From Chitinophagaceae bacterium (GTDB taxonomy: Bacteria; Bacteroidota; Bacteroidia; Chitinophagales; UBA10324), in assembly GCA_947469485.1 (NCBI GenBank), contig CANIPU010000006.1, positions 1-64,000 of the forward strand: 64,000 nucleotides of DNA, in the 5' to 3' direction. The notes beneath the pieces are model-generated. The model was not told the origin of the DNA. It saw nothing but the letters and a program-made list of their open reading frames with translations, and ran no database searches. A program made the position numbers and the translations under genes. Positions 8,629 through 21,194 of the stretch are shown here, in pieces; the stretch's first letter is position 1; each line of letters starts with the position of its first letter.

Positions 8629-9963
8629 TTATTTGAAGAATGCATTTTGTGAAAGTCTGTTTGCAGTTTCATCCTTGGTCAGCCTGATGTATTTTAAAAA
8701 GTTGCTTTCCTTTTTGTGACCGGAAATTTTCATGATGTCGATCGGAGGGATTTCAGCAAGATACATATTGGTAATTCCTGTCCGTCGCGCCGTGTGAGAT
8801 TTGATCAATTCATATTTCGGAACTGTTCTTCGCGCTTTAATACCACCTCTTGTTTCTTCAATCTCTACCAGTTCTGTTATACCTGCTTCTTTTCCTAAAT
8901 CTTTTATGGTCTCATTTAATTTTTGCTCCTGCACAACAGGAGGGCGATAGTTATATTTTTTCAACAGTACTTCGAGTTGACTGTTAATCGGAATTAAAAC
9001 TACCTCTTCAGTTTTTTTCTGAATGAGCTTCAATATCCTGATGCCTCTGGAAGTTGTGGTGATATTTTCGGGTTTGATGTTTTTATAATCAGAAACCCGT
9101 TGTGCAGTGTAACAGCCTATTAAAAAAACATCCCGACACAATTCCTGTGATTTTTTGTTATCCAGTTTAAGTTTCAACAATGCATTCACTTCATCATCAC
9201 TAAGGTAAATGTGTTCGGTGTTTTCATTAAAGACTTTGAATTTCCGGTAGGCGGGGTTTTGATGGAGCCCTTCTTCCTCTGCACTGCGCATGATTTTTTT
9301 TAATCGTGTCACATGTTTGCCGATGGTGTTCGGCGAATATTTTTTTGCTGTCATGAAATTTACAAATCGGGTGTAACACTCGTGTGTAACATCTTTGAAA
9401 TTTATTTCCCGACGATTATCTTTTTGAAATAAATTCCAGACGGATTGAAAGGTCAGATAATTTTTTACCGAACCATGACTGAATACTTTACCATTTGCAG
9501 TCAGACGCTGTGCATTTTTTATCTGCTGAATATATTTTTCAAGGTAATCATATAGATGAATGGAGTTTTCAATGGGTGAAACTTCCGGGTCATTTTTATT
9601 TTTTTTCAAATTCACTCTATTCAATTTTTCATCTAGCAGCAATTTGAATTCATCAGCGTTCATCTGCTTATTATTAAATTGAAAATTATTCATAATAATT
9701 TTTGCAGCGGATTCTATGTCACTTAAATTTTTATTGATGAGACTGAAAGTGGTCTGCTCTTCCATACTCAATCCCGATAACAATAATTTATTTTTCGTGA
9801 TTCGTCCAGACTCAGAATCAAAATAGTTCGGACTTATTTTTTCTCCTGTTCCATACACCAACCGACCACCTGATTTAAAATCTTTGTGATAGATAATCAT
9901 GCGGACAGAAGTGGGTTTGTTTTCTGTGATCGATTTTAACCGGAAAGTAATTTTGTTTTCCAT
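8629..9963 (-). CDS. Phage-type tyrosine integrase, 444 aa
   Basis: Integrase of the Bacteroidota mobile-element type. The N-terminal about 100 residues are an arm-binding domain (ITFRLKSITENKPTSVRMII...GRLVYGTGEKISPNYF), residues about 140-240 the SAM-like core-binding domain (YLEKYIQQIKN to KKYSPNTIGKHVTRLKKIM), and the rest the catalytic domain: Arg in GCYTAQRVSDYKN, HTARRTG, then SGHKKESNFLKYIRL with the final His and Tyr. Length is normal. It leads the candidate element; ATG 9963 is followed upstream by a palindrome (9991-10019) that may be its operator. It is unrelated in detail to the cassette integrase at 3259. Confidence 0.92.
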   Translation of the reverse strand: MENKITFRLKSITENKPTSVRMIIYHKDFKSGGRLVYGTGEKISPNYFDSESGRITKNKLLLSGLSMEEQTTFSLINKNLSDIESAAKIIMNNFQFNNKQMNADEFKLLLDEKLNRVNLKKNKNDPEVSPIENSIHLYDYLEKYIQQIKNAQRLTANGKVFSHGSVKNYLTFQSVWNLFQKDNRREINFKDVTHECYTRFVNFMTAKKYSPNTIGKHVTRLKKIMRSAEEEGLHQNPAYRKFKVFNENTEHIYLSDDEVNALLKLKLDNKKSQELCRDVFLIGCYTAQRVSDYKNIKPENITTTSRGIRILKLIQKKTEEVVLIPINSQLEVLLKKYNYRPPVVQEQKLNETIKDLGKEAGITELVEIEETRGGIKARRTVPKYELIKSHTARRTGITNMYLAEIPPIDIMKISGHKKESNFLKYIRLTKDETANRLSQNAFFK

Positions 9964-10343: not shown

Positions 10344-11066
10344 TTATTTCCAAAAATCTGGAAATCCCTCTATCAGGGATAAAATTTTTTTATCACTTTT
10401 AATACTGATATTTTTTTCAATCGTTTGAATAATTCCTTCCTTTTTCATTTGAGAAATAGTTCGGATAATTTCTTCAATTGATGCGCCAGTCATATCCGCT
10501 AATTCCTGACGGCTAAGTACAGCATCAAGTACTTTTTTTTTACCAATAGTTTTTTCACCAAATACCCGTCGGATATTAAGTAGTGCTTCAGCTAATCGTT
10601 GTTTTACTGTAATTTCTGAAAATGAGCGGAGTTTGTATTCTGAACGCTTTAATTCTTCACCCAAAAAAAATAATAATTCATTGAACAAAGGCGGATTGTT
10701 ATTCAATGCATCAATAAAATCTGACATTGGAATATATCCAATTAGCGCATCTTCTATTGCAGATGCACTTGCCGGATAAATTTTTTCGTAATTAAATCCT
10801 CTGTGACCAACAATATCGCCAACGCTTGCTAGGCGGGTAATGTGCACTTTGCCACCAGGACTATTTAAAAATATTTTAACTTTTCCTGAATATATAAAGT
10901 AAACACCGGTTACAGGATTCCCTTCATTGAAAAGTATTTGACCTTTTTTATATAATGAAACTACTTTTCGTTTTTCAATTATAAGTTTCCATTCAGGACT
11001 TACAAATCGTTGAATCATACATGATTTGATTGTACAGGAAGAGCAAACTGGAATTTCGTAATTCAT
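10344..11066 (-). CDS. FNR/CRP-family transcription regulator, 240 aa
   Basis: Residues about 25-145 form the cyclic-nucleotide-like sensor barrel (GQILFNEGNPVTGVYFIYSGKVKIF in two strands, GDIVGHRG), followed by a long dimer helix and a winged helix-turn-helix (LSRQELADMTGASIEEIIRTISQMKKEGII). The N-terminus holds CSSCTIKSC, cysteines 8, 11 and 16, like the iron-sulfur binding N-terminus of FNR. I see no fourth cysteine in the rest, so an Asp or His ligand, as known for some FNRs, or no cluster at all, must be considered. Its neighbours are the nos genes, with an FNR-type box at 11813, so it probably turns on N2O respiration at low oxygen. Confidence 0.88.
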   Translation of the reverse strand: MNYEIPVCSSCTIKSCMIQRFVSPEWKLIIEKRKVVSLYKKGQILFNEGNPVTGVYFIYSGKVKIFLNSPGGKVHITRLASVGDIVGHRGFNYEKIYPASASAIEDALIGYIPMSDFIDALNNNPPLFNELLFFLGEELKRSEYKLRSFSEITVKQRLAEALLNIRRVFGEKTIGKKKVLDAVLSRQELADMTGASIEEIIRTISQMKKEGIIQTIEKNISIKSDKKILSLIEGFPDFWK

Positions 11067-11078
11067 AATAAAAAAAAT

Positions 11079-11119
11079 CGCCAGAGAAACTTCCTTTTGG
11101 AATTGGAATTTCTCCGGCG
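11079..11119 (-). terminator. Terminator of the fasciclin gene
   Basis: Stem 11079-11094 with 11105-11119 containing one bulge, followed in leftward direction by a run of seven or eight T. It lies between the fasciclin gene stop (11141) and the regulator start (11066), so the two are separate transcripts. Confidence 0.8.
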
Positions 11120-11140
11120 AAAGTATTTAACTTTTACAAT

Positions 11141-11710
11141 TTACTTAGACGGAGGCACAACAACTGCATCTACAACATGTACCCAACCATTAGAGGCGCG
11201 CACAGATCCAAGAATCTTTGCGCCATCAATATAAGTTGCACCATCTTTTATATGAAATGTAACATTTGTTCCATCAACCATACCCATTGTTTGACCATCC
11301 TGAAAGAAAGAAGCATCCAGTGCTGATGTCATTACATGGTGCTGCAAAATTGCCTGCAACTTGGCTTTGTTTTCTGGTTTCAATAAATCGTCAACCGTTC
11401 CTTTTGGTAATAAATCAAAAGCAGCATTTGTTGGAGCAAATACTGTAAAAGGGCCTGCGTTCGAAAGCGCATCTACCAACTCAGCTGCTTTTACCGCAGC
11501 TACAAGAGTTGTGTGATCTTTTGAACCAACAGCAACTCCTACAACATTGGGTTGCGACTCATCATCTTTTACCCCCGATTGCCCTGTTAGTGGGGCATCT
11601 GTTGATTCTGTTGTTGCTGCACTGCTGTTTTCGTTTTCTGAGTTGCAGGATGAAAATCCAATCCATGACAATGCTCCTGTAATTGTGAAGAGAAAGAAAA
11701 ATTTTTTCAT
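11141..11710 (-). CDS. Fasciclin (FAS1) domain lipoprotein, 189 aa
   Basis: A lipoprotein signal (TGALSWIGFSSC) puts the protein on the periplasmic or outer membrane. After a Ser/Thr/Asn-rich linker, residues about 55-187 form one FAS1 domain: TLVAAVKAAELVDALSNAG, FTVFAPTNAAFDLLP, LQAILQHHVM and the closing ASNGWVHVVDAVVVPP. FAS1 domains mediate adhesion or protein contacts. It is divergent from the cytochrome and nosZ genes and shares their intergenic region with the FNR-type box, so it may be co-regulated. FAS1 lipoproteins beside nos genes are something I would call a context-based association only. Confidence 0.9.
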   Translation of the reverse strand: MKKFFFLFTITGALSWIGFSSCNSENENSSAATTESTDAPLTGQSGVKDDESQPNVVGVAVGSKDHTTLVAAVKAAELVDALSNAGPFTVFAPTNAAFDLLPKGTVDDLLKPENKAKLQAILQHHVMTSALDASFFQDGQTMGMVDGTNVTFHIKDGATYIDGAKILGSVRASNGWVHVVDAVVVPPSK

Positions 11711-11778
11711 TTTATTTATTTTTTTTGAGTTTTAAATTTAATTTGATTTAATTATTTATCAGTGATAATTCTTTTACG

Positions 11779-11795
11779 CTGTAAAAGTGTTACAG
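11779..11795. promoter_or_regulatory. Palindrome CTGTAA-N5-TTACAG
   Basis: Perfect six-base half sites with five bases between, in the divergent region between the fasciclin and cytochrome genes and 17 bases from the FNR-type box. Probably a second operator; the binding protein is unknown. Confidence 0.45.
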
Positions 11796-11812
11796 TATGT
11801 ATATTTCATAAT

Positions 11813-11826
11813 ATGATGTAAATCAT
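11813..11826. promoter_or_regulatory. FNR/CRP-type box ATGAT-GTAA-ATCAT
   Basis: Perfect five-base half sites with four bases between, the geometry of the FNR consensus TTGATnnnnATCAA, one base off in each half. Its centre is 111 bases from the cytochrome start and 110 from the fasciclin start, so it can serve either side. The FNR-type regulator is encoded next door. Confidence 0.6.
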
Positions 11827-11930
11827 AATATAAACTGATTATTATCATTTAAATAAATTGTGCCCGCAATCACCTTTGATGCGTAAAAAATGATTTCTAA
11901 TTATTCCTCATCCCCAAAAAATAAAATTCT

Positions 11931-12404
11931 ATGAAAAAATTAATCCTGCCAGCAATTGCAATTGGACTATTGTTCTGGGCTGCTTGTTCAAGTCCGGCAA
12001 AAGAAGAAGGAAGCGGCGAAGCTCCTGAATCAATGGTGCCTGATGAAGTTGATAAAAATATTGATGAAAAAGGCGTTGGAAAATTTACGAATGTCGAACT
12101 AACGCATCCATTAAATCAAGATTGGGTTAAAGAAGGAGAGAGCGTTTCAAATATGAAATGTATTTCATGTCACAAATTAACTGATGAAAAATTAGTAGGA
12201 CCTGGTTGGAAAGGTGTAACAACCCGTCGCAAACCAGAGTGGATAATGAATTTCGTTACTAATACAGAAGAGATGATTGATAAAAGCCCCGAAGCACAAA
12301 AAATGCTCGAGGTGTGTTTAACCAGAATGCCAAATCAAAATTTAAGTGATCACGATGCCAGAGTTGTATTAGAGTTTTTACGAAACAACGATGGTGAAAA
12401 ATAA
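11931..12404 (+). CDS. Monohaem cytochrome c lipoprotein of the nos cluster, 157 aa
   Basis: Lipoprotein signal (IGLLFWAACSS) then an acidic linker and a class I cytochrome c domain. Haem attaches at CISCH (about residue 80), followed by KLTDEKLVGPGWKGV; the distal Met is probably in CLTRMPNQNLSD. The closing helix HDARVVLEFLRNND is typical. Such small cytochromes lead clade II nos clusters and are thought to pass electrons to NosZ. It is 33 bases ahead of nosZ and surely in the same transcript, downstream of the FNR-type box. Confidence 0.92.
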   Translation: MKKLILPAIAIGLLFWAACSSPAKEEGSGEAPESMVPDEVDKNIDEKGVGKFTNVELTHPLNQDWVKEGESVSNMKCISCHKLTDEKLVGPGWKGVTTRRKPEWIMNFVTNTEEMIDKSPEAQKMLEVCLTRMPNQNLSDHDARVVLEFLRNNDGEK

Positions 12405-12437
12405 AATTTAACCCCAATTTTAAAACCAATAAAAAAT

Positions 12438-14411
12438 ATGAAAAAATTAATGTTCATCCCTCTTGCGATTATCGTTTTCGCAATAGCAATTTCAGGATGT
12501 AAATCTCACAACACTCAATCAGCTGTTTCCGGTGATGCTGCTTCAAAAGTGTATGTTGCTCCGGGTAAGTATGATGAGTTCTATAATTTTGTGTCGGGTG
12601 GTTTCAGCGGGCAAATGGCTGTGTATGGTTTACCATCGGGCCGGTTGTTTCGTGTAATTCCTGTTTTTTCTGCCGACCCACAAAGCGGTTATGGATTTAC
12701 TGAAGAAACAAAAGCAATGTTAAATACAAGCCATGGATATATTCCTTGGGATGACCTTCACCATATTGCTCTTTCAACAACAAAAGGAATTCATGATGGT
12801 CGTTGGGCTTTTGGAAATGGTAATAACACACCCAGAGTAGCCCGCATAAGCATGAAAACTTTTGATACCGAAGAAATTATTGAGTTGCCTAACAGTAATG
12901 GAAACCACTCTTCGCCTTTTATTACTGAGAATACTGAATATGCTGTTGCAGGTACTAGATTTTCTATTCCTATGGATGATAACAATGATGTGCCGATTGA
13001 ATCATATAAACAAAACTTCCATTCAACTGCGAGTTTTATAAAAATTGAACCTGAAACAGGTCATATGAGCATTGCTTTTCAGGTTATGTTGCCTGGGGTT
13101 AATCTTGATTTATCAAGAGCAGGTAAAGGCCCGAGCCATGATTGGTTTTTCTTTTCATGTTATAATTCTGAACAAGCAAATACTTTGTTAGAAGTAAATG
13201 CATCTCAAAAAGATAAAGATTTTATTGTTGCTGTAAATTGGAAAAAAGCTGAAGAATATGCCGCGCAGAATAAAGGAAAGAAAATGGCTGTAAAATATGC
13301 TCATAACACTTATGATGAAGCGACCCATTCAGCAACTACTGAATATGGAACAGAAGTTCAGGTCTTGGATCCGGCAAATTGCCCTGGTATGGTTTACTTA
13401 ATGCCATGTCCGAAATCTCCACATGGTTGTGATGTTAACCCAACCGGCGAATACATTGTTGGAAGCGGAAAATTAGCCGCAGTGATTCCTGTTTTCTCAT
13501 TTGAAAAAATGCAGAAAGCAATTGCCGATAATAATTTTGACGGAGATTATAGTGGAATATCAGTATTAAAGTATGATGCAGTATTGCACGGTGAAGTTCA
13601 AAAACCAGGCCTTGGTCCTTTACATACTGAATTTGATGCTGATGGTAATGCTTACACTTCATTCTTTGTTTCTTCTGAAATTGTAAAATGGAATGTTAAA
13701 GATTTAAAGGTTATTGACAGAATTCCAACATACTATTCAATTGGTCACTTATGTGTTCCTGGCGGTTGTACTGCTAAGCCTTGGGGCAAGTATGTGATTG
13801 CATACAATAAAATCACAAAGGATCGCTACCTTCCAACTGGTCCTGAGTTAAATCAATCAGCACAGCTTTATGATATAAGCGGTGAAAAAATGAAATTGCT
13901 TCTTGATTTTCCAACTATTGGAGAGCCGCATTATGCCGAAGCAATTCCTGCAGATTTGATAATGAAAAACAGCAAGAAATTCTATAAGATAGAAGAGAAT
14001 TCAAATCAATATGTTACAAAGAGCGAAAAGGATGCAAAAGTGGTTCGTACAGGAAACAGAGTTGATGTTTACATGACTGCAATTCGTTCTCACTTAGCTC
14101 CTGATAATATTGAAGGTGTTCGCCTAGGTGATGAAGTGTATTTCCATGTAACTAATCTTGAACAAGATTGGGATGTGCCACATGGATTTGCTGTAAAAGG
14201 TGCTCAGAATTCTGAGGCGTTGATTATGCCTGGTGTAACCCGCACAATTAAATATGTTCCGAATAAAGTAGGAGTCATAGCGTTCTATTGCACTGATTTT
14301 TGCTCAGCACTGCATCAGGAAATGCAAGGATACATAAGAGTTTCACCAGCAGGCTCAAATGTTCCTTTGACTTTTTCATTAGGTAAAAATCCGGTGGTTT
14401 CCACCAAATAA
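12438..14411 (+). CDS. nosZ: Nitrous oxide reductase, Sec-exported lipoprotein type (clade II), 657 aa
   Basis: Reduces N2O to N2. The signal peptide has no twin-arginine motif and ends in a lipobox (FAIAISGCKS), so this is a Sec-dependent, lipid-anchored NosZ as in clade II. The N-terminal seven-bladed propeller carries the CuZ histidines in DDLHHIAL, SHDWFF, SPHGCDVNP, GPLHTEFD, IGHLCVPGG and GEPHYAEAI. The C-terminal cupredoxin domain has the CuA ligands in VPHGF and FYCTDFCSALHQEMQGYI. Length is normal for the clade. The cytochrome gene precedes it and two terminators follow. All expected copper ligands seem present, so the enzyme should be active. Confidence 0.98.
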   Translation: MKKLMFIPLAIIVFAIAISGCKSHNTQSAVSGDAASKVYVAPGKYDEFYNFVSGGFSGQMAVYGLPSGRLFRVIPVFSADPQSGYGFTEETKAMLNTSHGYIPWDDLHHIALSTTKGIHDGRWAFGNGNNTPRVARISMKTFDTEEIIELPNSNGNHSSPFITENTEYAVAGTRFSIPMDDNNDVPIESYKQNFHSTASFIKIEPETGHMSIAFQVMLPGVNLDLSRAGKGPSHDWFFFSCYNSEQANTLLEVNASQKDKDFIVAVNWKKAEEYAAQNKGKKMAVKYAHNTYDEATHSATTEYGTEVQVLDPANCPGMVYLMPCPKSPHGCDVNPTGEYIVGSGKLAAVIPVFSFEKMQKAIADNNFDGDYSGISVLKYDAVLHGEVQKPGLGPLHTEFDADGNAYTSFFVSSEIVKWNVKDLKVIDRIPTYYSIGHLCVPGGCTAKPWGKYVIAYNKITKDRYLPTGPELNQSAQLYDISGEKMKLLLDFPTIGEPHYAEAIPADLIMKNSKKFYKIEENSNQYVTKSEKDAKVVRTGNRVDVYMTAIRSHLAPDNIEGVRLGDEVYFHVTNLEQDWDVPHGFAVKGAQNSEALIMPGVTRTIKYVPNKVGVIAFYCTDFCSALHQEMQGYIRVSPAGSNVPLTFSLGKNPVVSTK

Positions 14412-14472
14412 TAAGTAGTTAAGAAATTCCACTGGCAGAAGGGGATCTGCCAACAATCAGGATGGTGGATAG

Positions 14473-14506
14473 CTGTCCGCCTTTAATAGGGCGGACAGTT
14501 TTTTTT
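14473..14506 (+). terminator. Terminator after nosZ
   Basis: Nine-base GC-rich stem (CTGTCCGCC with GGCGGACAG at 14490-14498), seven- to eight-base loop, and a run of eight T. It should end most cytochrome-nosZ transcripts and keep accessory gene levels lower. Confidence 0.9.
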
Positions 14507-14529
14507 AGTGCCTATCTTTATAGGGGTAT

Positions 14530-14575
14530 ACTCCTGACATTATGAAAATATTTTTTTGCAAATCAGGAGTTTTTT
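14530..14575 (+). terminator. Second hairpin with T run ahead of the nos accessory genes
   Basis: ACTCCTGA (14530-14537) pairs with TCAGGAGT (14563-14570) and six T follow. It lies 24 bases before the start of the NosL fusion gene. A second terminator in tandem or an attenuator in the leader of the accessory operon are both possible. Confidence 0.55.
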
Positions 14576-14599
14576 AAAATTTTCAAATTCAATTTCAAA

Positions 14600-15628
14600 A
14601 TGAGCATAAATATTAAAGCCCATAAATTATCTGTTATAAATAGGATTTTATTGGCAATCGGAACACTCGCAATGATTGCAGTTTACTTTGTTCCTTTATG
14701 GCAAATTCAATTGTGGGCTCCGCAATATCCTGAAGGTTTAATTATGTATATATGGCATAACAATATTGATGGCGATGTAAATACAATTAATGGATTGAAC
14801 CACTACATCGGGATGAAATTAATTAAAGTAGAAATGTTTCCTGAATTTAAAATACTAGGTATACTTATAGCAATATACATTGCCTGGGGATTGTTAGTTT
14901 CAATTACAGGATCTTATAAATTATTAGTGTCTTATATTATTGGAGATATAGTTTTTGTTATTGCAGCTATGGCTGATTTCTTTCGTTGGGGTTATGATTA
15001 TGGACACAATCTTGATTCACACGCGGCTATTCAAGTACCCGGTATGTCATATCAGCCACCAGTAATTGGCTACAAAGTTTTATTAAATTTTGAGGCTTAC
15101 AGTGGTCCGTATATAGGAGGCTGGATTGTAGTAGGAGCAGGTGCAATAGCTGTTTTAATTTTATTTTTTGAATGGATGAAGCGAAAAAAACATAAAAGTA
15201 AATTGCCTCATGTTTTTAGTTTAGTTGGAATATTCATGCTTGTATCATTTTCATCTTGTTCCCAAGTGGTTGAACCTATTAAAATCGGCGTTGATAATTG
15301 TAATTTTTGTCAGATGACTATAATGAAAAATACCAATGGTTCTGAAATTATAACTAATAAAGGAAAGATATATAAGTTTGATGACCACGGATGCATGAGA
15401 GATTTCATCGCAGATAAAAAAGTTTCTGTAAATGATATCTCAAAAATTTATTTTAATGATTATGAATCAGGAATTCTAATGGAATCGACTTTAATTACTT
15501 TGGTGAAAAATGAAGCGTTCAGAACTCCAATGAATTGGAATATTATTGCTGTGAAAAATGAAAATGCAAATAAATATCTTTTAAAAAAGGGAAGTTCCAT
15601 TGTTGATATAAAGGAATGGTTAAAATAA
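14600..15628 (+). CDS. Fusion of a four-TM membrane domain with NosL-like copper chaperone, 342 aa
   Basis: Residues 1-205 hold four membrane helices (INRILLAIGTLAMIAVYFV, ILGILIAIYIAWGLLVS, YIIGDIVFVIAAMADFF, GGWIVVGAGAIAVLILFF). Then comes a fifth hydrophobic stretch ending in a lipobox-like SFSSCSQ, and a NosL domain (about 230-342) with DNCNFCQMTIMK and DDHGCMRDF. NosL delivers copper to NosZ. In related clusters the membrane protein and NosL are separate genes, and here the former NosL signal seems to remain inside the fusion. The gene overlaps nosD by 13 bases. Confidence 0.85.
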   Translation: MSINIKAHKLSVINRILLAIGTLAMIAVYFVPLWQIQLWAPQYPEGLIMYIWHNNIDGDVNTINGLNHYIGMKLIKVEMFPEFKILGILIAIYIAWGLLVSITGSYKLLVSYIIGDIVFVIAAMADFFRWGYDYGHNLDSHAAIQVPGMSYQPPVIGYKVLLNFEAYSGPYIGGWIVVGAGAIAVLILFFEWMKRKKHKSKLPHVFSLVGIFMLVSFSSCSQVVEPIKIGVDNCNFCQMTIMKNTNGSEIITNKGKIYKFDDHGCMRDFIADKKVSVNDISKIYFNDYESGILMESTLITLVKNEAFRTPMNWNIIAVKNENANKYLLKKGSSIVDIKEWLK

Positions 15629-16887
15629 AAGGGGCGTTTTTTTTAATATTTATTTTTACGCTGATTTGCTTTCAGTCTGAAGGAAAACAATTTATTGTTT
15701 CGAAAACAAGCCACGAATTTTCATCAATAAAAAATGCACTTTTAAAAATTTCGGCTGGAGATACAATTTTTGTTTTATCCGGCATCTATCATGAATATGG
15801 TTTGGTAATTAAAGTTCCAATTACATTAATTGGAAATAATTTTCCTGTTGTTGATGGAGACTCACATGGACAGATTTTTTCAATTGAGTCTGATAGTGTT
15901 ACTGTTTCAGGTTTTGTAATTCAAAACACCGGCTTTTCAGCAATGAATGATTGGGCCGGAATACGAACCCAAAATGTATCTGTTATTACTATTGAGGGAA
16001 ATAAATTCCTGAATTGTTGTTATGCAATTTTTTTAGCAGGAAGTAAGTATTGTAAGGTAGCCAACAACATTATTAAGGGGAACCCGGCTAATCAGCAACT
16101 TGCAGGTAATGGAATTCATTGTTGGCAAAGTATTAATTGCGAAATCTACAATAATGAAATAGCAGGCCAACGCGATGGGATTTATTTTGAATTTGTTCAG
16201 GGCTCAACTATTTCGAATAACCACAGTTATGAAAATATGCGATACGGTTTGCACTTTATGTTTAATGATAATAACCGTTTTGTGGAGAATCTTTTTGAAA
16301 ATAATGGTTCTGGAGTAGCGGTTATGTTCAGTAAAAATATAACCATGTTAAATAATGTTTATCGAAATAACTGGGGCGCAAGTGCTTATGGTTTGCTGTT
16401 GAAAGAAATAAATGACAGCTATGTATTATATAATCATTTTGAAAAAAACACAGCCGCAGTTTATATGGAGGGCTGTAATCGAATAGTTTTTACAAGAAAT
16501 GATTTTTTACAAAATGGCTGGGCAATCAGAGTGCAAGCCAGTTGTATGAATAACACAATAGCTTGTAATAATTTTTTAGGAAACACTTTTGATATTGCAA
16601 CAAATGGTTCGCTTTCATTAAATATTTATTCAGGAAATTATTGGGAGCAATATGAAGGATATGATTTAAATAAAAACGGAATAGGAGATATTCCATTTAG
16701 ACCTGTAAGTGTGTTTAGCATGTTTAGTGAGAATATGCCTGAAAGTATGGTAATGATGCGAAGTTTTTGTGTAACATTGCTCGATAAGATTGAAAAAGTA
16801 GTTCCGGGTGTAATTCCTGAAGACTTGATTGACAATTCCCCAATGATGAAAAAAATAAACAATGCTTATCCGGGTAAAGGAACTTAG
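15616..16887 (+). CDS. nosD: NosD, periplasmic copper-site maturation protein, 423 aa
   Basis: Signal peptide (FFLIFIFTLICFQSEG) followed by a parallel beta-helix of the NosD/CASH type, with repeated units such as ISNNHSYENMRYGLHFMF, NRFVENLFENNGSGVAVMF and NITMLNNVYRNNWG. The domain ends near residue 360 with NYWEQYEGYDLNKNGIGDIPFRP broken by the usual DxNxxGIGD loop. NosD works with the NosFY transporter in assembling the CuZ centre of NosZ. It overlaps the NosL fusion gene (13 bases) and nosF (26 bases), so the accessory genes form one tight operon. Confidence 0.95.
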   Translation: MVKIKGAFFLIFIFTLICFQSEGKQFIVSKTSHEFSSIKNALLKISAGDTIFVLSGIYHEYGLVIKVPITLIGNNFPVVDGDSHGQIFSIESDSVTVSGFVIQNTGFSAMNDWAGIRTQNVSVITIEGNKFLNCCYAIFLAGSKYCKVANNIIKGNPANQQLAGNGIHCWQSINCEIYNNEIAGQRDGIYFEFVQGSTISNNHSYENMRYGLHFMFNDNNRFVENLFENNGSGVAVMFSKNITMLNNVYRNNWGASAYGLLLKEINDSYVLYNHFEKNTAAVYMEGCNRIVFTRNDFLQNGWAIRVQASCMNNTIACNNFLGNTFDIATNGSLSLNIYSGNYWEQYEGYDLNKNGIGDIPFRPVSVFSMFSENMPESMVMMRSFCVTLLDKIEKVVPGVIPEDLIDNSPMMKKINNAYPGKGT

Positions 16888-17578
16888 TAAATCATTCAGA
16901 AAATTAAATGTGCTGAAAAGTGTTTCGGTATCCTTTGAAGCAAATCAATGTGTTGCCATAATTGGACCTAATGGTTCAGGCAAAACCACATTTATTAAAT
17001 CTGTGCTTGGAATGGTGATTCCTGATGGAGGAGAAATAATTGTTAATGAAAAGAACATTAAAAATAATTTTCAATATCGAGAGGGTATTGGTTATATGCC
17101 CCAGATAGGAAAGTATCCTGAGAACACTACTATTGGCCAGCTTTTCGGTATGATAAAGGATATTAGAAAGCAAAATGAAATAGCGTTGGATGAAGAATTG
17201 ATTGAGGCATTTCACCTTCCTGAATTATACAATAAAAGAATGCGGACTCTTTCGGGGGGAACTAGGCAAAAAGTAAGTGCCGCACTTTCTTTTTTATTTA
17301 ATCCTCAGATTATAATTCTGGATGAACCTACTGCAGGATTAGATCCCCTAAGTGCTGAAATTCTGAAAGATAAAATTCAACAGGAGCGGAAAAAAAACAA
17401 GCTCATACTAATTACTTCACACATTATGAACGATCTCGATGAATTGAGTTCTCATGTAATGTTTATGTTGGATGGTAATCTCAAGTTTTTTAAAACAATG
17501 GAAGAATTAAAAACAGAAACCGGAGAGGACAGGCTTGGAAAGGCAATGGCTAAGCTTATGAAAGAACAATCAAATTGA
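16862..17578 (+). CDS. nosF: NosF, ABC transporter ATP-binding protein, 238 aa
   Basis: Walker A GPNGSGKTT (residues about 35-43), Q-loop near YMPQIGKYPE, signature LSGGTRQKVSAALSF, Walker B IIILDEPTAGLDP and the switch His in ITSHIMND. ATPase of the NosDFY machine that supports CuZ assembly in the periplasm. Its start lies inside the end of nosD (26-base overlap), and it ends 10 bases before nosY. Length is slightly below the usual 300 because it lacks a C-terminal extension, which is normal for the clade II form. Confidence 0.95.
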   Translation: MLIRVKELSKSFRKLNVLKSVSVSFEANQCVAIIGPNGSGKTTFIKSVLGMVIPDGGEIIVNEKNIKNNFQYREGIGYMPQIGKYPENTTIGQLFGMIKDIRKQNEIALDEELIEAFHLPELYNKRMRTLSGGTRQKVSAALSFLFNPQIIILDEPTAGLDPLSAEILKDKIQQERKKNKLILITSHIMNDLDELSSHVMFMLDGNLKFFKTMEELKTETGEDRLGKAMAKLMKEQSN

Positions 17579-17588
17579 AAGGCAAAGT

Positions 17589-18353
17589 ATGAAATTGGTT
17601 AAGTATATTCTTTTTGATCTGGTCCGTAGCAGGTTTGTTTTATTTTATTTCTTGCTTCTTTTGCTTTTCACCGGAACATTTGTTTTGTTGCAGGATGATG
17701 TATCAAAGGTTCAATTGAGTTTGTTGAACATTATCATTTTAGTTATTCCTTTGGTTAGTGTAATATTCGCAACAATTCATTGGTATAATTCATCTGAATT
17801 TATTGAAGTATTGCTGGCACAGCCTATCAGCCGGAAACGAATTTTTATTAGCGAGTTTATCGCATTGAGTTTAGCAGTAGGAGGCGCTTTTCTTTTAGCA
17901 ACTGGAATTCCATTGCTTATTTTTTATCCAGATACTGTTTCATTATTGTTAATGATTGGAGGATTTTTTCTTACAATCATATTTATTGCTTTAGCTTTTT
18001 GGTCAGCGGTTTTTACAAGAGATAAGGCAAAAGGAATAGGATTGAGTTTGGTGTTCTGGTTGTACTTCTCACTTATATATGATGGGTTGATATTAATGAT
18101 CATGTTCAACTTCAGTGATTATCCAATTGATAAAATTGTTGTTGCATTGCTTTCATTAAACCCCGTTGATGTTACACGAGTGATGATTTTGATGAAAATG
18201 GAAATGAGTGCTATGCTTGGATATAGCGGGGCTGTTTTTACAGATTTTATTGGAAGCAATGTGGGCATGATCTATTCAGTTGTTCTTCTTTTAATATGGT
18301 CAATTATCCCTTTTTTATGGGCGCTAAGAAAATTTTCAAAAAAAGATTTGTAG
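17589..18353 (+). CDS. nosY: NosY, ABC transporter permease, 254 aa
   Basis: Six predicted membrane helices: residues about 15-32, 46-66, 89-110, 115-140, 155-175 and 222-245. ABC-2 type permease partner of NosF; the cytoplasmic loop LAQPISRKRIFISEF (about 78-92) is the usual coupling segment of this family. Spacing to nosF is 10 bases and to the next gene only three bases, so it is translated as part of the same operon. Confidence 0.92.
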   Translation: MKLVKYILFDLVRSRFVLFYFLLLLLFTGTFVLLQDDVSKVQLSLLNIIILVIPLVSVIFATIHWYNSSEFIEVLLAQPISRKRIFISEFIALSLAVGGAFLLATGIPLLIFYPDTVSLLLMIGGFFLTIIFIALAFWSAVFTRDKAKGIGLSLVFWLYFSLIYDGLILMIMFNFSDYPIDKIVVALLSLNPVDVTRVMILMKMEMSAMLGYSGAVFTDFIGSNVGMIYSVVLLLIWSIIPFLWALRKFSKKDL

Positions 18354-18356
18354 AAG

Positions 18357-19592
18357 ATGATAGAAAGTGTTTTTAGAAAGAGGTTTTTAATAGCATTATT
18401 TAATTTTTTAATTGTCGCAGCTGTAGGAACATTGCTTCGGTTTGTATTTGTTCATGAAGTTGAAATCGTTGCTGAATATAAAAATGTGCTTCATGCACAT
18501 TCACATGTAGCAATAATGGGTTGGGTGTTTATGGCTTTGTTTGGCTCATTATTATTTGCATTTACGCCAGATGCCTCAAATAGAAAATTGTATCATGTTT
18601 TGTTTTGGATCAATCAAATCAATTGCTTGGTACTTATCGTAAATTTCTGGATTCATGGATATGATATTGTTAGCATTGTTCTTTCGTCAATTTATATTTT
18701 AATAACATATATTTTCTCAGTTAATATTTTGATAGATTTAAAGAATTCAAATGCAAGCAGTATAGCAAAAATGCTGTTAAAATTCAGCTTGTTCTTTTTA
18801 GTAATTTCTACAATCGGAATATTGGCATTAGGTCCTGTTCTAATGACTTTACATGGCACTGAAAAAGTAATTTGGTATTATCTGCTTGTTCAATTCTATA
18901 TTCATTTTCAATATAATGGCTGGTTTATTTTCGGATGTTTAGCTCTTTTTTTTAGTTTTTATAAAAATAATTCCACTGAAAATAAAGTGGTTTTGTATCC
19001 GGTTTATGGAATAGCTTTTGCAACAATTACTACTTATTGTCTAAGTATATTTTGGGGTTTTCCTGCGTATCACATTTTTCTTAACATCTCTGTTGCTTCA
19101 GGCTTTGTACAATTATTTTTTACTATTCAATTGTTTCGATTAAACAAAAACATTGTTAAAGAAATATTTTATAAATTAAAATCAGGTGTTAAAGCGCTTT
19201 TTATAATTTCTTTTTCAGCTCTGATCATAAAGCAATTACTTCAGGTAATTCTTATTTACCCTGAAATGGCGCATGCATCATTTGTATTAAGAAATTATGT
19301 AATTGCATATCTGCATTTAACTTTTCTTGGTGTAACAACAATTTTTTTACTTGGATATGCTTGGCAGAATAATGCATTATTAATTCAATCAAAAGTTGCA
19401 AAAATTGTAATTGGAATAATTGTTTGTTCTGTTTTTTCAATTGAATTGCTTCTTTCAATAATGGGAAGTTTATCGTGGGCAGGCATAAGTTCAGGAGCAA
19501 TATTTTATCAATTAGTTTTTGTTTTTTCTTTAGCAATTGTTCTGTGTTTACTAATTATCCTCGTTAAGAACTTGAAGAAAAAGTTTAGTTAA
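18357..19592 (+). CDS. Polytopic membrane protein with His motifs, last gene of the nos operon, 411 aa
   Basis: About 12 membrane helices cover nearly the whole protein. Two histidine-rich motifs sit at helix ends: NVLHAHSHVAIMGWVFMALFG (about residues 44-63) and QFYIHFQYNGWFIFG (about 180-194); another His-rich spot is YLHLTFLG near 320. The number of helices and the paired HxH/H motifs recall membrane subunits of haem-copper oxidases or NorB-like proteins, which suggests haem or quinone binding, but I cannot show homology. It is three bases after nosY. NosR, the usual electron donor in clade I, is missing here, so a role in electron supply to NosZ is an attractive inference. Confidence 0.75.
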   Translation: MIESVFRKRFLIALFNFLIVAAVGTLLRFVFVHEVEIVAEYKNVLHAHSHVAIMGWVFMALFGSLLFAFTPDASNRKLYHVLFWINQINCLVLIVNFWIHGYDIVSIVLSSIYILITYIFSVNILIDLKNSNASSIAKMLLKFSLFFLVISTIGILALGPVLMTLHGTEKVIWYYLLVQFYIHFQYNGWFIFGCLALFFSFYKNNSTENKVVLYPVYGIAFATITTYCLSIFWGFPAYHIFLNISVASGFVQLFFTIQLFRLNKNIVKEIFYKLKSGVKALFIISFSALIIKQLLQVILIYPEMAHASFVLRNYVIAYLHLTFLGVTTIFLLGYAWQNNALLIQSKVAKIVIGIIVCSVFSIELLLSIMGSLSWAGISSGAIFYQLVFVFSLAIVLCLLIILVKNLKKKFS

Positions 19593-19696
19593 TAATGATT
19601 TAAACTTTTTGGATAAAACTTTACAAAAGTCAATAAGTTAATTAATTAAAATTCCCTGTTGAAGTGTAAGTACACGATTGCCTTGTAATTAAATTA

Positions 19697-19704
19697 TAAT
19701 TTTG
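19697..19704 (+). promoter_or_regulatory. Promoter -7 element TAATTTTG
   Basis: Matches the Bacteroidota -7 consensus TAnnTTTG and lies about seven bases before the first stem of the candidate small RNA. A TTG around 19677 could be part of the -33 element. Confidence 0.45.
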
Positions 19705-19732
19705 ATAAACTGAGGAGCGAAAAATAATTAGT

Positions 19733-19745
19733 GCTTCCGACCTCA
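19733..19745 (+). repeat. 13-bp direct repeat, right copy
   Basis: GCTTCCGACCTCA, identical and co-oriented with 10200-10212. Lies 141 bases after the last nos gene. Confidence 0.7.
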
Positions 19746-19750
19746 CACAA

Positions 19751-19783
19751 AGGCGCTTGGAATATAATCGGGCGCCTTTTTTT
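19751..19783 (+). terminator. Rho-independent terminator
   Basis: AGGCGC (19751-19756) pairs with GCGCCT (19772-19777), 15-base loop, then a run of seven T. It follows the nos operon and the candidate small RNA and precedes the response regulator. Confidence 0.8.
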
Positions 19784-19844
19784 ATTTCATATTTTAGGCA
19801 TCCTAAAAGCGGTTAGCTTTGTCGAAATAAACAGAACTGAAAAA

Positions 19845-21194
19845 ATGGCTAGCAAAGTTCTTGTAGTTGATGATGAACCGGATGTGGAGAGTTTATTCCG
19901 CCAGTTTTTTCGTAGTCAAATTAAAAAAGACGAATTAACATTTGTATTTGCAGAGAATGGAAGTGTCGCACTCGACAAATTAAAGGTTTATCCTGATATT
20001 GATGTAGTATTCACTGATATTAATATGCCGGTAATGGATGGGTTAACTTTTTTAGAAAAGAAAAAGGAAAACAATCACTTACAAAAAACTGTGGTGATTT
20101 CTGCCTATGGAGATATGCAGAATATTCGAACTGCCATGAATCGAGGAGCATTTGATTTTATTACAAAGCCTATAACTTTTGAAGACCTTCAACTCACCTT
20201 GGTCAAATCCATTGAAGAAATGGAATTATTAAAAAAAGGAATTGAAGCACAGAAGAGTTTGATTCAGTCGCAACACGAAAAGGAAATTGCTCTTATAGAA
20301 AAGGCAGAAGCACAACAGCAGGCAATGCAAAGTTTACAGGAAAAAGAAAAATTAATTCTTTTTCAAAATGAATTGCTTGAATCGCAAGTAGCAGAGAGAA
20401 CCAAGGAGGTATTATATCAAAAGGAATTACTTGAAATAAAAAACAAAGAGATTATGGATTCCATTCACTATGCAAATAGTTTGCAAAAAGCAATTCTTCC
20501 ACCTGAGAACGAGTTGCGAACATTATTTCCTCAAAGTTTTATTTTTTTTAAACCAAAGGACATTATTTCTGGAGACTTTTATTGGTTCAATTCTAAAGCA
20601 GATAAAATAATTGTAGTTGCTGCAGATTGCACAGGCCATGGAGTGGCAGGCGCACTTATGAGCGTTTTGGGCACTTCATTATTAAATCAAATTGTCAACG
20701 AGAAGGGAATAACAGTTCCAGATCAGATTTTAAAAAAACTGAATAATTCGGTCATCAATTCATTGAACAAATCAGAAGCTGATGCTCATGCTGGAATGGA
20801 TGTTGCCATTTGTTCAATGGACTTAAAAAGCATGAAGTTGGAATTTTCCGGAGCAAAACGACCAATTTTGATACTCAGAAAAGGAGAACTGTTACAGTAT
20901 ACAGGAGATAAATTTTCAATTGGCAGTCAGTATTGGGATAATGAAACATTTACACTTCATTCCATTTCAATTTTAACTGGCGATTCAATTTATCTTTTTT
21001 CTGATGGATTTGTAGATCAGTTTGGAGGAGAAAACGGAAAAAAAATAATGACAAGCAATTTCAAAGAATTATTAATTTCTATTCAAAATAATAAAATGCG
21101 AGAACAAGGAATTTTATTAAATGAATATTTTGAAAGTTGGAAAGGAAAGAATGAACAGGTGGACGATGTGATGGTTATTGGAATAAAAATTTGA
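19845..21194 (+). CDS. Response regulator with PP2C-type (SpoIIE) phosphatase output, 449 aa
   Basis: Residues 1-125 are a receiver domain (KVLVVDDEPDVESLF, phosphorylatable Asp in VFTDINMPVMDG, Thr/Ser in VVISAYGD, Lys in FITKPI). A coiled coil follows (about 130-220, rich in EKAEAQQQ and QKELLEIKN), then a PP2C-like SpoIIE phosphatase domain with GDFYWF, ADCTGHGVAGALMSVLG and a final VDDVMVIGIKI. Such proteins control partner-switching through anti-sigma antagonists or other phosphoproteins. The frame is open upstream to 19731, but those codons overlap the terminator and the protein clearly starts at ATG 19845 (MASKVLVVDD). Confidence 0.93.
   Translation: MASKVLVVDDEPDVESLFRQFFRSQIKKDELTFVFAENGSVALDKLKVYPDIDVVFTDINMPVMDGLTFLEKKKENNHLQKTVVISAYGDMQNIRTAMNRGAFDFITKPITFEDLQLTLVKSIEEMELLKKGIEAQKSLIQSQHEKEIALIEKAEAQQQAMQSLQEKEKLILFQNELLESQVAERTKEVLYQKELLEIKNKEIMDSIHYANSLQKAILPPENELRTLFPQSFIFFKPKDIISGDFYWFNSKADKIIVVAADCTGHGVAGALMSVLGTSLLNQIVNEKGITVPDQILKKLNNSVINSLNKSEADAHAGMDVAICSMDLKSMKLEFSGAKRPILILRKGELLQYTGDKFSIGSQYWDNETFTLHSISILTGDSIYLFSDGFVDQFGGENGKKIMTSNFKELLISIQNNKMREQGILLNEYFESWKGKNEQVDDVMVIGIKI

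Follow-up and report, generated by a model that had tools for sequence, protein, structure and literature searches.

In haem-copper oxidases (HCOs), transmembrane helices 2 and 10 (TM2 and TM10) bind a low-spin haem between them, TM10 also carries a high-spin haem through its H-x-H motif, and TM6 and TM7 bind CuB or FeB; the third pore is empty in ordinary HCOs. NnrS (PF05940) is a membrane protein of the NO response in Proteobacteria. Ric (TIGR03652) is a protein that repairs NO damage, and dnrN corresponds to it. According to PMC1274295, nnrS and dnrN are co-regulated in Proteobacteria by NsrR-type, NO-responsive regulators. Among the membrane proteins linked to N2O reduction, NosR is the quinol-side donor of clade I systems and NosB is a polytopic protein of clade II clusters, with motifs given in PMC9697520. 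Rrf2 genes are enriched beside clade II nos clusters and some nos scaffolds carry dnrN and nnrS, according to PMC6264515. The Bacteroidota are important clade II N2O reducers in which NO handling and electron supply to NosZ are little known.

Here, a Bacteroidota nos operon is described that ends with a gene for a 411-aa membrane protein with a predicted HCO fold. No description of its family was found in a literature search that reached few subscription papers.

Results

The nos operon and its last gene

The window, by which we mean the whole analysed stretch of 64,000 nt, contains an operon in the order cytochrome c, nosZ (clade II), nosB-nosL fusion, nosD, nosF, nosY and the gene of interest (Table 1). 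The stop codon of nosY ends at 18353 and thereby leaves a gap of three bases, as the first-pass annotation had stated in assigning the gene to the operon. This spacing is kept in two genomes of the same genus (L002 and L003), in which the protein is 73-74% identical to the 411-aa protein. Twelve helices and the HAHSH and HFQYNGW motifs had also been proposed and are borne out: the model has 12 membrane helices, some broken into two pieces, and the motifs occupy residues 46-50 and 183-189. NosR had been noted as missing, and the stretch from 10344 to 21194 indeed encodes none. The ORF adjoins neither Rrf2 nor Nor genes, its neighbours being nos genes only.

Table 1. Features of the nos operon and of its last gene, with positions in the window
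Feature	Position	Strand	Remarks
Crp/Fnr-family regulator	10344..11066	-	
Perfect 17-bp palindrome, CTTTTAC-GCT-GTAAAAG	11771..11787	+	Upstream of operon
Two tandem FNR-type palindromes, TGAT-N4-ATCA	11814..11847	+	Starts 11814 and 11836, 22 bp apart; upstream of operon
Single-haem c-type cytochrome	11931..12404	+	Lipoprotein-like leader and CISCH, from sequence
nosZ, clade II, Sec-dependent	12438..14411	+	TIGR04246, 910.8 bits (cut-off 625)
NosB-NosL fusion	14600..15628	+	NosL domain C-terminal; NosB motifs LNHYIGM and YGHN N-terminal
nosD	15616..16887	+	TIGR04247, 390.8 bits (cut-off 300)
nosF-type ABC ATPase	16862..17578	+	
nosY-type ABC-2 permease	17589..18353	+	PF12679
12-TM protein, predicted HCO subunit-I fold, 411 aa	18357..19592	+	ATG 18357, stop 19590-19592
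HAHSH, residues 46-50, TM2 start	18492..18506	+	H48 and H50 His in 98/98 rows with a residue
HFQYNGW, residues 183-189, TM6	18903..18923	+	H183 His in 100/100
H320, TM10	19314..19316	+	In register with TM10 low-spin haem ligand; His in 100/100

Like NosR, the 411-aa protein is a membrane protein linked to nos genes, but it has no Cys clusters (Cys 90, 194, 228, 357 and 397 only), no flavin domain was found in it, and its predicted fold is that of HCOs. Like NosB it is a polytopic membrane protein of a nos cluster; the NosB motifs, however, sit in another gene (14600-15628), fused to NosL. A lipoprotein-like motif separates the two halves of this fusion, and PMC9697520 already reports NosB-NosL fusions from some flavobacteria and Dyadobacter.

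Two tandem FNR-type palindromes and a perfect 17-bp palindrome precede the operon. An FNR-type pair with the same 22-bp spacing is also present in the family loci L043, L034, L112 and L124, and the 17-bp palindrome is conserved in one of the two same-genus genomes checked. Over the whole 64,000-nt window, FNR-like motifs number 5 against 3.1 expected, which is not significant, and only their pairing in the promoter is notable. The Crp/Fnr-family protein encoded at 10344-11066 is a candidate regulator that could read the FNR-type boxes.

About 2 kb from the nos operon, the minus strand encodes a tyrosine integrase (8629-9963) that includes a SAM-like domain (PF13102, PF00589). Of six genomes of the genus, three have nosZ together with the HCO-fold family gene and the other three have neither. 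In view of the nearby integrase and this joint presence and absence, the nos operon may be mobile. Divergent from the operon lies a gene for a fasciclin-domain lipoprotein (11141-11710, minus strand), relatives of which lie close to the family gene in 6 of the 80 best loci out of 422.

Predicted fold and putative cofactor ligands

The AlphaFold2 model of the 411-aa protein, made from 21 relatives, has a mean pLDDT of 88.7 and a pTM of 0.91. All 20 Foldseek matches at E <=0.001 are HCO subunit I, with CcoN, the catalytic subunit of cbb3 oxidases, ranked first (E 7e-7, TM-score 0.70-0.75). In a structural aligner, Z was 34.6 for CcoN (396 residues, rmsd 3.2), 34.3 and 33.2 for NorB and about 30 for mitochondrial-type subunit I, far above the best Z of about 14 that the aligner quotes as background for helical proteins. 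All HCO superpositions covered 385-402 of the 411 residues at 3.0-3.6 Å, and the modelled protein is an HCO subunit-I fold over its whole length. The first-pass annotation had proposed structure prediction and comparison with NorB and CcoN as a check, and these two are the best structural matches. At the sequence level, the sole Pfam match of the protein was PF00115 (COX1), at 21.4 bits and so below the cut-off of 34.8, and COX1 matched 2 of 21 family members at E up to 1. The protein matched no NCBIfam family, and neither its own sequence nor a profile found a match among PDB sequences.

The TM1-3 profile best matches TM9-11 of HCOs and not TM1-3 (about 40 versus 18 in Nor), which might suggest a circular permutation but is no proof of one. 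Cross-matches of this kind also occur between true HCOs (Nor TM9-11 scores 39.7 against CcoN TM1-3 and 40.7 against TM9-11), and permuted whole-length profiles are barely better than unpermuted ones (Nor 46.0 versus 41.4, local; CcoN 32.4 versus 31.5; CtaD 21.3 versus 21.2), with nearly all rotations alike. Furthermore, TM10 of the family ranks first against TM10 of HCOs, and the unpermuted fold fits the full length. An internal three-fold repetition explains the cross-match between TM1-3 and TM9-11 equally well.

The conserved histidines H48 on TM2 and H320 on TM10 are, by their presence and register, placed to hold a low-spin haem. Profile scans against Nor, CcoN and CtaD each ranked first the alignment that puts H320 on the low-spin ligand of TM10. 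For the segment of TM2 that contains H48-x-H50, the first-ranked partner in the same three proteins was the TM10 H-x-H, His on His; the top three in CcoN also included the true TM2, where H48 falls on the haem ligand. H46 is His in 93 of the 98 rows with a residue there, and such conservation of the motif histidines (Table 1) shows that the two motifs are not chance occurrences. Residue 113 is His in 72 of 100 relatives and Tyr in the 411-aa protein. We infer that a low-spin haem b would lie between H48 and H320, and that H46 and H50 of TM2 together with H183 of TM6 could form a second haem or metal site in the third pore. The earlier description of the His motifs as lying at helix ends fits HAHSH, at the start of TM2, and fails for H183, which is in the middle of its helix (167-199). 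The likeness to haem-copper oxidases that it drew from these motifs agrees with the structural matches and with histidines that are well placed in the sequence for haem ligation, and its suggestion of haem binding is probably right as well.

The classical catalytic site is missing. The first His of the TM10 H-x-H, which is the high-spin haem ligand, is absent, position 318 being Phe in 55 and Tyr in 45 of 100 relatives. The CuB/FeB His-His of TM7 is also absent: no His is conserved in columns 200-300 (best 17/100), and any HH at 200-262 occurs in only 8 of 100 family rows. Because both the TM7 His-His and the TM10 high-spin ligand are missing, the family is, as judged from its ligand positions, neither an oxidase nor a classical NO reductase. 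It shares with CcoN the 12-TM fold over the whole length and conserved His on TM2, TM6 and TM10, but identity is 9-11%, these ligands are lost, and TM2 has an extra H-x-H. With NorB/qNor it shares the fold and an N/E-G four residues past the TM6 His (H-x3-[N/E]-G), and the TM2-TM6-TM10 His spacing is 135 and 137 residues compared to 134 and 140-142 in NorB/qNor (L059). Of the FeB site of these enzymes, however, only the TM6 His is kept; the TM6 Glu is Asn in 98 of 100 and the TM7 pair is absent.

A phylum-wide search revealed a divergent branch of the family (E about 1e-18 to 1e-34), which retains HAHSH and the TM10 His. In all 12 of its 12 members the TM6 His is one helical turn up and Glu replaces the Asn of the main branch on TM6. 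The fold is unchanged in the model of this subfamily (pLDDT 89.7; Z 33.6 to CcoN), for which the ligand profile scan is weaker and not always first-ranked.

Distribution and gene neighbourhoods

Co-occurrence was analysed in 296 genomes drawn evenly from the phylum, in which the family was found in 62, nosZ in 100, Ric in 123, Nor in 39 and NirK in 64. Genomes with the family differ from those without it in the presence of Ric (56/62 versus 67/234), nosZ (49/62 versus 51/234), NirK (31/62 versus 33/234) and Nor (16/62 versus 23/234), contrasts that are inflated by relatedness among the genomes, so that their P values serve as a rough guide at best. With nosZ held constant, Ric accompanies the family in 44/49 versus 35/51 nosZ-positive and in 12/13 versus 32/183 nosZ-negative genomes; with Ric held constant, the corresponding figures for nosZ are 44/56 versus 35/67 (Ric-positive) and 5/6 versus 16/167 (Ric-negative). 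The family gene is at most 10 kb from nosZ in 35 of 49 genomes and at most 5 kb from Ric in 28 of 56. A nearer sample of 99 genomes held the family in 21, nosZ in 27 and both in 19.

Homologues are found mostly in genomes with nosZ, in keeping with the expectation of the first-pass annotation, but its proposal of a role specific to N2O respiration is not supported. As many as 51 of 100 nosZ genomes are without the family, and 13 of 62 family genomes are without nosZ, 12 of these 13 carrying Ric; the family is therefore not tied specifically to N2O reduction. Six of the 62 family genomes are without Ric, and G140 and G244 have the family and none of nosZ, Nor and NirK, G244 being without Ric as well. 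No sign of mutual replacement between Nor and the family is seen, the family being present in 12 of 22 NirK+Nor+ and 19 of 42 NirK+Nor- genomes. The genome of the 411-aa protein has nosZ, carries Ric on another contig (C3) and gave no NirK or Nor match.

Gene neighbourhoods were compared in named genomes for the best 80 of 422 loci by likeness to the query, a choice that leans to close relatives; 79 of the 80 were counted, L096 being omitted because its expected strand showed no ORF of the family. Among these best-ranked loci, nos, Ric, Rrf2, Nor or NirK genes lie within flanks of up to about 8 kb in 70 of 79; short contigs account for several of the remaining nine. In the same selection (best 80 of 422), 24 of 79 loci have Ric immediately upstream in the same orientation, a c-type cytochrome related to that of the operon immediately precedes the family gene in 13 and immediately follows it in 3, and in nos-free loci the family gene is found beside Ric, Rrf2, NirK or Nor. 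Many flavobacterial loci have the family gene beside Ric without such a cytochrome c, and in many loci it adjoins Rrf2 or Crp/Fnr genes; the Rrf2 neighbour tested scores below the NsrR cut-off. Flavobacterium and Pontibacter carry the family in simple gene clusters. On a plasmid of Tunicatimonas pelagia the order is Rrf2, ric, family gene, cytochrome c and nosZ, with nosD, ABC genes and a truncated haemoglobin close by, and the family gene is annotated in this record as a hypothetical protein.

Context labels change 27 times on the tree among 77 rows, which is fewer than in shuffles (mean 42.6), and the context of the family gene is therefore partly inherited and partly reshuffled. The 411-aa protein is on a long branch (2.0) and its placement in the tree is unsure. 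L054, L080 and L082 were left out of the tree for over-long ORFs, and L008, which has an in-frame TGA near the C terminus, was left out of A1 and A2, the latter comprising 66 of 100 aligned rows.

Discussion

The explanation that we favour, with moderate confidence, is that the 411-aa protein represents an undescribed, Bacteroidota-centred HCO-fold family without a binuclear centre, and that it is an NnrS-like haem protein of the NO response which has been recruited into a nos operon. This reading is based on the gene company of the family, which resembles the pattern of NnrS, a protein co-regulated with dnrN: both are polytopic, and the company is similar in that it includes DnrN/Ric, NirK, Nor and nos genes. 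The resemblance appears to be one of analogy with no detectable homology. PF05940 did not match the 411-aa protein or 21 family members, the family profile against one NnrS gave P 0.19, a weak test given the single sequence, and NnrS was detected in none of 118 sampled genomes of the phylum with a model that does match on pSymA, the positive control. A 452-aa protein (L197:25274-26632) is encoded near NnrS in the denitrification region of pSymA, between DUF2249 genes; it has no Pfam match, and a single-sequence comparison, again a weak test, found no relation to the family.

As an NO-response protein, the family member would bind or slowly turn over NO at the membrane, and such capture would spare Fe-S and iron pools as well as the copper enzyme NosZ. 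In the source organism, which has nosZ and Ric and gave no NirK or Nor match, its task would be to shield the N2O reductase from NO that others produce. Against this it must be noted that in the source genome the nos link is the direct one, that the pairing with a c-type cytochrome in 13 of 79 loci (best 80 of 422) also fits electron transfer, and that the association with nosZ persists within Ric-positive genomes. A further-reaching version, possible and in our judgement rather doubtful, would make the family a third functional lineage of the HCO fold with re-sited cofactors, in which TM2 gained a TM10-type H-x-H, the TM2-TM10 pore is filled by one haem and the TM2-TM6 pore by another haem or a metal, the whole serving as the NO-handling counterpart of NnrS in Bacteroidota. 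The family is widespread and offers a specific candidate for the membrane component still missing from the NO response of Bacteroidota. Its existence also suggests that the oxidase fold has been put to a use other than reducing O2 or NO at the classical site.

The last place in the nos operon and the neighbouring cytochrome c, upstream in 13 and downstream in 3 of 79 loci (best 80 of 422), would also suit the role put forward in the first-pass annotation, that of a di-haem b protein carrying electrons from quinol through the operon cytochrome c to NosZ in place of NosR; two stacked bis-His sites could serve transmembrane electron flow. We consider this unlikely, because half of the N2O reducers lack the family, which would not be expected of an obligatory donor. 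Family genomes without nosZ and the many flavobacterial loci with Ric and no such cytochrome c point in the same direction, and no quinol site was identified in the 411-aa protein. That the family is instead a new type of true NO reductase, or of enzyme that scavenges NO, with a non-canonical metal site of H46, H50 and H183 next to the haem, we regard as more unlikely still. The HCO fold, the co-occurrence with NirK and the NorB-like spacing on TM6, with Glu in the whole divergent subfamily, are what such an enzyme might display, but neither the TM7 His-His nor the TM10 high-spin ligand is there, and the family does not replace Nor.

Regulatory and maturation roles are of low probability. A membrane sensor of NO or O2 signalling to a regulator would be consistent with the Rrf2 or Crp/Fnr genes that adjoin the family in many loci, and the first-pass annotation had named a sensor as its alternative to the electron donor. 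Yet no signalling domain is fused to the protein and no regulator partner is constant across loci, and we rate this role as improbable. Least probable of all is an assembly factor handling copper or haem for NosZ, NirK or Nor: the gene does sit here with the maturation genes for NosB-L, NosD, NosF and NosY, and the start of TM2 is His-rich, but half of the nosZ genomes do without the family, and G140 and G244 have it with none of the three enzymes that it would serve.

A separate, oddly built COX1-like ORF of 440 aa was encountered in G034 (C2:198366-198980), where two weak COX1 matches cover profile ranges 40-174 and 281-411 on overlapping DNA, and a Ric gene is located about 1.6 kb away.
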